Origin: Catalimonadaceae bacterium JC749
Lineage (GTDB): Bacteria > Bacteroidota > Bacteroidia > Cytophagales > Cyclobacteriaceae
Reading direction: 5' to 3'
Assembly: GCA_021730635.1 (NCBI GenBank)
Contig: JAJNNC010000008.1
Span: 62,001 to 126,000, forward strand
Length of the DNA: 64,000 nt
Shown here: piece after piece, positions 18,541 to 20,577 of the stretch
Position numbering within the stretch: the stretch's first letter is position 1
Layout: the number at the start of each line of letters is the position of its first letter
Made by a program: the position numbers and the translations under genes
Notes under the pieces: generated by a model
Databases searched by the model: none
The model's input: only the letters and a program-made list of their open reading frames with translations
What the model was told of the DNA's origin: nothing

Positions 18541-19767
18541 ATGAAGCCAGCCGCACCTGTTATACAAAATACAAAAAGTCGTGTTTCTTCCATTGATGGT
18601 CTGCGGGGTTTTGCCCTGCTACTGGTTTTGATCACACACTTTGTGGGGCCTTTTCCAGGGTATACTCTATTATTCACAGAAGAACAGCTAGCTGCTTTAC
18701 CGATGCCTGATTTGGATGCCCTGCTCGACAGGCTGAATCAGTTGCTCTTCAACGATAAAGCCAGAGCGCTGTTTTCTTTTCTGTTTGGCTTAAGCTTTTA
18801 TTTTCAGCTCAACAAGGCAGAACGTCTTGGTATTTCTTTTAAGAAAAACTTTACCCGAAGACTGATCATCCTGCTGGTGTTCGGGCTTCTGCATGCTTAC
18901 CTGCTATGGTGGGGCGATATTCTGAGATGGTATTTTGTGGCTGGTATCGTCCTCCTGTTTAGTTATCATCTGAGCCCCCGGGTTATTCTGCTGATGGGTA
19001 TCCTCTGTATGTTTGCCATACCCATTGCAGAAAATATTGCAGAGCCTCTCATGGCCCGAAGTCCCGAACGTTTTATTTCCTTAGCTGCAGCCCGGAATGG
19101 TTTTTTAAGTGATTCTTATTTTGAAATGCTGAAAGCTAACCTGTTATGGGATTTAAACATGAGTCTGAATCCCTGGTACCGTATTCCACATACGATCAAC
19201 ATATTGGGTTTCTTCTTTCTGGGACTCTGGGCAGGCAAAACCAGTATATTTAAAAAAGTAGATGAGTATGGTAAGCATTTTATGCTTGGGTTGGTCATCA
19301 GCTTTTTTGTCTTTCTGTTAGGTACTTATGTATATCTTTACGTCCCTGCCGATATAACAAATCATGAGGTATTCTCCAGACTCATACGAGCTACCGGCGG
19401 GCGTCTGAACGATGTAGGGTTGTTTGTTTTTTATGTCTGTGGTTTTGCCTTGCTTTTTCATTTTACAAAAGTCCGGTATTTACTGACTGCTTTTATACCG
19501 ATAGGTCAGATGACGCTGACCAATTATATTATGCAATCTGTGGCAGGTATTTTTCTTTTTCATGGAATAGGACTTGGATTAATGACGAAAGTGGGGCCTT
19601 CCGTTACCATGCCTGTAGCCCTTGTATTCTTTGCCCTTCAAATTGGCTTTAGTCTGCTGTGGCTGAAATATTTCACGATGGGTCCTTTGGAGTGGCTGTG
19701 GCGTGCCCTGGTAGCAGGTAAATTTCAGCCCCTTCTGAAGAAAAAAACAGAACCTATTTATTCTTGA
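18541..19767 (+). CDS. DUF418 family multi-pass membrane protein
   Basis: 408 residues with about ten hydrophobic segments. The N-terminus SRVSSIDGLRGFALLLVLITHF is the opening shared by DUF418/YeiB-like and acyltransferase-3 proteins; the end GQMTLTNYIMQSVAGIFLF ... MGPLEWLWRAL is the DUF418 signature. These are putative inner-membrane transporters or acyltransferases of unknown substrate. The gene stands alone between two non-coding stretches and has no clear promoter box. Confidence 0.88.
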   Translation: MKPAAPVIQNTKSRVSSIDGLRGFALLLVLITHFVGPFPGYTLLFTEEQLAALPMPDLDALLDRLNQLLFNDKARALFSFLFGLSFYFQLNKAERLGISFKKNFTRRLIILLVFGLLHAYLLWWGDILRWYFVAGIVLLFSYHLSPRVILLMGILCMFAIPIAENIAEPLMARSPERFISLAAARNGFLSDSYFEMLKANLLWDLNMSLNPWYRIPHTINILGFFFLGLWAGKTSIFKKVDEYGKHFMLGLVISFFVFLLGTYVYLYVPADITNHEVFSRLIRATGGRLNDVGLFVFYVCGFALLFHFTKVRYLLTAFIPIGQMTLTNYIMQSVAGIFLFHGIGLGLMTKVGPSVTMPVALVFFALQIGFSLLWLKYFTMGPLEWLWRALVAGKFQPLLKKKTEPIYS

Positions 19768-19824: not shown

Positions 19825-19938
19825 CTAACTGTCAGAGTGGCTGGCAAAATGCACCGGTGTATGCTCGTCATAGTAGCCCAATTGCTTTTGCACATAAGTG
19901 ACTAACTGCACGCCAAATAAAGTATCTATCATTTCCAT
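19825..19938 (-). pseudogene. Short frame, possible gene remnant
   Basis: A 37-codon frame from ATG at 19938 reads MEMIDTLFGVQLVTYVQKQL and then GYYDEHTPVHFASHSDS. Its composition looks protein-like rather than random, and the upstream codons (SLSP) could belong to it, but the frame is cut by the 23-bp array upstream. I do not recognise the family; it may be the 3' end of a lost gene or chance. Confidence 0.25.
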
Positions 19939-19978
19939 GGGAGATAGGCTGGTACTCGAGTGCCCATATAATACCTAC

Positions 19979-20139
19979 CATTAGAAGGATAAGGGGATTA
20001 TCATTAGAATGAGAGGGTGGTTGCCATTCTAATGAAAGGGTGGTTGCCATTCTAATGAAAGGGTGCGTGTCATTAGAATGATTTGGTGTAAAGCATTCTA
20101 ATGAAAATCGAAAAACCATTCTAATGAAAAATAATTCAC
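19979..20139. repeat. Seven-unit 23-bp tandem array with CATTCTAATG core
   Basis: The 10-mer CATTCTAATG or its reverse complement CATTAGAATG begins at 20002, 20025, 20048, 20071, 20094 and 20117, exactly 23 bases apart; a 9-of-10 copy (CATTAGAAGG) lies at 19979, again 23 bases away. Orientation is rev, rev, fwd, fwd, rev, fwd, fwd. The 13-base spacers are related in the middle units (AAAGGGTGGTTGC) and diverge toward both ends. The arms CATT...AATG are palindromic and only the central dinucleotide (CT/AG) gives direction. A 124-codon frame crossing the array on the minus strand simply translates the repeats. Confidence 0.85.
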
Positions 20140-20184: not shown

Positions 20185-20577
20185 CTATACAAACTGATAA
20201 GCCCAATAGATAAGCCCTGCCTGCAAAAAAAGCCTGGCCCATAAAACCCAGGAAGGGATTTTCTTGAATCTGTCAGACCTTATCATGTAGAGATGCACTG
20301 GCAGAAAAGCTATCAACATAATCATAATTCCCCAGGCAGCGATGCTGCGGATGGTTGAGAAAAGAAGACACACTCCCAAAATGATTTCAGCCACACCGCT
20401 GACATATACCAGGACTAAAGCATAAGGCAGGTAAGGAGGGATGATCCTGGTGTAAAAGGCAGGCTTTATAAAATGGGCTAAACCAGCCATGATATATACA
20501 CCTGCCATGACATACAGGCTCGCTATGCTGCCTCCATCTCCATACTGCATTTCCAAATATATAAAAGATAGGGTCAT
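20185..20577 (-). CDS. DoxX-like small membrane protein
   Basis: 130 residues with four predicted membrane helices: ASLYVMAGVYIMAGLAHFI, YALVLVYVSGVAEIILGVCL, AAWGIMIMLIAFLPVHLYMI and LWARLFLQAGLIYWAYQF. The pattern HFIKP near helix 1 and SGVAEIILG in helix 2 fit the DoxX/MauE-like superfamily, whose members often serve as membrane partners of redox enzymes. ATG at 20577 is used; the Met at codon 10 is also possible. It is divergent from the oxidoreductase gene. Confidence 0.8.
   Translation of the reverse strand: MTLSFIYLEMQYGDGGSIASLYVMAGVYIMAGLAHFIKPAFYTRIIPPYLPYALVLVYVSGVAEIILGVCLLFSTIRSIAAWGIMIMLIAFLPVHLYMIRSDRFKKIPSWVLWARLFLQAGLIYWAYQFV

Follow-up and report, generated by a model that had tools for sequence, protein, structure and literature searches.

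Background

Short tandem repeats of bacteria are usually classed as minisatellites. The REP and BIME elements of enterobacteria consist of dispersed intergenic palindromic units, candidates for protein binding, in which REP sequences form longer GC-rich hairpins of alternating orientation and variable spacing. In plasmid iterons the repeats are placed about two turns apart for cooperative binding. Among Bacteroidota, the BrickBuilt element of Porphyromonas gingivalis is a MITE/minisatellite with a gapless 23-nt unit, found as imperfect copies in variable number at 19 dispersed, strictly intergenic loci, and it has a leader, a tail and terminal inverted repeats (PMC4596501).

The element described here shares with BrickBuilt the gapless 23-nt unit, imperfect copies, variable unit number, intergenic dispersal and a host in Bacteroidota, but has another unit and core, is without leader, tail or terminal inverted repeats, and occupies 2 loci as compared to 19. 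It resembles REP/BIME in being made of dispersed intergenic palindromes, with both arrays near convergent gene ends, and differs in being built of 10-bp dyads spaced at exactly 23 bp. Its spacing of about two turns is that of plasmid iterons, whereas its arrays are chromosomal, with a symmetric core, two loci far apart and no initiator gene. The array is real, unusual and partly explained, and is most likely a protein-binding array with a layout that recurs across Bacteroidota.

Anatomy and setting of the array

The window (the whole stretch of DNA analysed, 64,000 nucleotides) contains an array of seven 23-bp units at 19979-20139, 161 bp in total and free of indels (Table 1). The core, CATT-NN-AATG, is exact in six of the seven units and has a single mismatch in the first; from unit 1 to unit 7 its two central bases read AG, AG, CT, CT, AG, CT and CT. 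The last 5 bases of unit 7 are probably flank and not array. With up to 3 mismatches allowed, six core pairs at 23 bp were counted in the window, against a mean of 0.89 and a maximum of 4 in dinucleotide shuffles (n = 100), none of which reached the window's count. The array was also the highest-scoring one in the window in Tandem Repeats Finder. The strict periodicity put forward in the original prediction was confirmed, at all seven starts.

Table 1. Units of the array and the genes on either side, in window coordinates.
Feature	Position	Strand	Remarks
DUF418 membrane protein gene	18541..19767	+	flank, 3' end facing array
Unit 1	19979..20001	+	core CATTAGAAGG, one mismatch; matches left-end unit of sister array
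Unit 2	20002..20024	+	core CATTAGAATG
Unit 3	20025..20047	+	core CATTCTAATG; spacer nearly duplicates that of unit 2
Unit 4	20048..20070	+	core CATTCTAATG
Unit 5	20071..20093	+	core CATTAGAATG
Unit 6	20094..20116	+	core CATTCTAATG
Unit 7	20117..20139	+	core CATTCTAATG; right end AATGAAAAATAA common to sister array
MauE/DoxX-like gene	20185..20577	-	flank, 3' end facing array

The array is intergenic, between the 3' ends of its two flanking genes, and promoter-like sites at the array were at shuffle level. A short open stretch on the minus strand at about 19828-19963, ending ...HTPVHFASHSDS, has the look of a gene remnant. Neither a Pfam match nor, in 38 genomes, a relative was found for it, which leaves the "decayed gene" previously placed beside the array unsupported.

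A sister array in the same genome

A pattern search of the genome for degenerate arrays, allowing up to 3 mismatches, together with a DNA search, gave a single sister array, on the minus strand of contig C18 (C18:3762-3890), with 88% identity over 129 bp. It reaches nine units and, like the window array, has a gene ending towards it on either side: an HU-DNA_bdg/DUF4469 gene on one and, 1.3 kb away, a CheB/CheR hybrid kinase gene on the other. Spacers and their order are common to the two arrays, from which it follows that these were copied as units; the "free spacer sequence" of the original prediction was not borne out. The end units also match, the left ending in RTTAT and the right having AATGAAAAATAA. 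The differences are interior: the window array has a doubled GGTGGTTGC unit and the C18 array has additional AAAATC-type units. Such differences by whole-unit duplication are minisatellite behaviour, and the array is in part a minisatellite.

Differences between the two arrays fell at 0/48 positions in the core arms, 5/12 in the two central bases and 17/78 in the spacers (arms vs spacers, p = 0.0002); when units were paired from the array ends, the counts were 1/40, 3/10 and 9/65, respectively. Arms and phase are conserved beyond the spacers, as would be expected of a protein-binding operator array, with a weaker contrast under end-anchored pairing (p = 0.08). Core centres AG, CT and palindromic CG are all present across the two arrays, CG occurring in the sister array. 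Since a single change turns CG into either AG or CT, inversion is not needed to produce "flipped" cores, and with these intermediates present the claim that such cores require more than duplication is not supported.

Similarity between the arrays ends at the array edge, with no common leader or tail; a terminal inverted repeat was not seen at either, nor was a clear target duplication. In an empty-site comparison with the sole congener (G001), gene order was not kept and the insertion boundary was not readable.

These features bear on the possible, though unlikely, alternative of a BrickBuilt-type selfish repeat, i.e., a 23-bp minisatellite in a non-autonomous mobile element with no host protein bound. 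The symmetry of the core might then be the trace of a transposase or simply a property of the founding unit. Like BrickBuilt, the element has a 23-nt tandem unit in dispersed intergenic copies, here two arrays that differ by unit duplications. It departs from a selfish repeat in having only two copies in its genome and in the lack of leader, tail, terminal inverted repeat and clear target duplication noted above, and by eye its units have a different core from the BrickBuilt consensus, AGAYCATARTATCCTCTCRTRTG.

Distribution of the core

With up to 3 mismatches allowed, 195 relatives in the family, the sole congener among them, gave no triple of cores at 23 bp; the array is therefore dispensable. 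A search of 84,980 species gave the exact triple core on 13 contigs, of which 12 were from Bacteroidota (Parabacteroides, Bacteroides, Dysgonamonadaceae, Symbiothrix, Crocinitomix and one rumen genome). In this genome and six match genomes, all core pairs 5-35 bp apart had a gap of 13 (49/49); the seven genomes were chosen for 23-bp triples, so this period is partly selected, while the extra arrays and the lack of other spacings are not. The gap of 13 is kept even where the arrays of a single genome have spacers that are unrelated (CAACGATGAACTG, GTATTCGCAATAT, ACTTGATGGTAGT). The present genome shows no enrichment of the core beyond its two arrays (33 sites vs 31 for a control pattern, with 11 of the 33 inside arrays), so that the check for the same 10-mer at random spacing came out in favour of the original prediction. 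Five Parabacteroides arrays likewise fit whole-array copying. Elsewhere, arrays are found beside genes of varied kinds, with no common regulatory position. Among the papers listed in literature searches none was relevant to the core strings, and searches for 23-bp repeats in Bacteroidetes gave none.

In IMG/VR, the phages of one lineage have 3-5 CATTSSAATG units spaced 23 bp apart. These lie between ninG-like and parB-like/terminase genes and may form a packaging or partition site. These phage arrays (L038-L047, e.g. L043:1681-1795) adjoin an AT-rich stretch. The lineage could suggest that the arrays described here are origin iterons, or the partition or packaging site of a former plasmid or phage, which we consider very improbable: no replication or phage gene adjoins either array, the phage spacers are unrelated to theirs, and spacers of 12 (one phage contig) and 14 (two contigs) were found, with a spacer of 13 in a single lineage. 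The phage matches reduce to one lineage, with other spacings present too. The genes flanking the two arrays include no adjacent replication initiator gene such as iterons have. Directly next to the array, neither a replication gene nor a transposase was seen, and the iteron and active-transposon-end readings are without support on that account.

Arrays with another core in a relative

The relaxed core CAT-N4-ATG was found in 5 of 395 genomes of the class, the present one included, and the control in 1. One of the relatives, G313, has many arrays with the core AACAT-N4-ATGTT. Over 640 kb of G313, neighbouring copies of the motif were 23 bp apart in 23 of 25 pairs, compared to 0 for a control palindrome. 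Eight G313 arrays each contain exactly four units and measure exactly 83 bp; their arms are 95% identical and their spacers 45% (37% for shuffled spacers). The phase is unbroken despite near-saturated spacers, which argues for constraint on the phase, and decay of a selfish repeat alone would not preserve arms and phase while spacers saturate. Of all the results, this contrast speaks most strongly for function; it was obtained in a relative and not in the window. In favour of the selfish repeat, some G313 arrays have leader or tail bits in common: the pairs C1:800171 and C1:1058480, and C1:1249392 and C2:1154708, have a common leader (TTTGTTACGAATNAAAAGACAAG) or tail (AAAAGCTATCTTCAAAAGAG), which hints at a dispersed element of larger size. 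A pdxB-like gene lies beside an array in both a Parabacteroides genome (L036:4908-6041) and G313 (C1:900578).

The self-complementary cores could also pair across the array in a hairpin-forming RNA or single-stranded DNA, with AG/CT flips keeping the pairing. Folding z-scores of arrays were -4.4 to -8, the window centres are complementary between units 1-7, 2-6 and 3-5, and right-hand units in G313 carry GGGG where left-hand units carry mostly CCCC (pooled p = 0.002). This explanation is nevertheless improbable, as core-preserving spacer shuffles or random core flips folded equally well in 8-49% of trials, complementarity by order was not significant (p = 0.10 for the own array, p = 0.11 for G313), and neither an Rfam covariance-model match nor a terminator was found. 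Folding as RNA is largely accounted for by the self-complementarity of the core, and an array-wide mirror order of core centres is suggestive in G313 and not significant by order.

Interpretation and implications

We interpret the locus, with a probability of roughly 0.5, as a phased array of symmetric putative protein-binding sites carried on a small repeat that is dispersed between genes. A dimer would recognise CATT on both sides of each core, which would fix the arms and leave the central two bases and the spacers loose. Neighbouring dimers would touch, holding the 23-bp step while spacers drift; as this step is about 2.2 helical turns, successive sites would be rotated slightly round the helix. 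Whole arrays would be copied to new intergenic sites, with whole units gained or lost. The anatomy, the sister copy, the fixed arms and phase and the recurrence of the layout with other cores in Bacteroidota are observations. We infer the protein, its cooperativity and this route of copying, and the same applies to any influence that the array may have on the genes nearby or on the structure of the chromosome. As to the original proposal that the spacing itself matters in a protein-binding array, the fixed spacing of the 49 pairs and of the eight G313 arrays fits binding, while the spacers are not free.

HU-family proteins are a candidate for the binder. HU-HIG genes adjoin arrays in Parabacteroides and Bacteroides genomes, a homologous HU-like gene adjoins a G313 array, and the C18 array has an HU-family gene beside it; HU-like genes are rare, with two in 640 kb of G313. 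This association was spotted post hoc and is only a lead. The array-adjoining HU-HIG and HU-like genes, in four genomes, are at L026, L028, L101 (G313 C1:800171) and L011:2886-3605. A broader and rather doubtful proposal is that the arrays belong to a phylum-wide class of lineage-specific dyads (CATT-NN-AATG, TACATTATAATGTA, AACAT-N4-ATGTT, TACATACGTATGTA) at an invariant 23-bp step, which would be recognised by an oligomeric protein whose geometry is fixed while its sequence preference drifts, possibly an HU-HIG protein marking its own gene.

In these arrays the step and the palindrome arms are fixed and all else drifts, and sporadic arrays in several orders of Bacteroidota have this 23-bp layout with other letters. 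The four-unit, 83-bp arrays of G313 provide a compact test fragment. If a protein reads the arrays, they would represent a new nucleoprotein structure or regulator in Bacteroidota, and would suggest that the 23-nt BrickBuilt repeats, too, may be functional.
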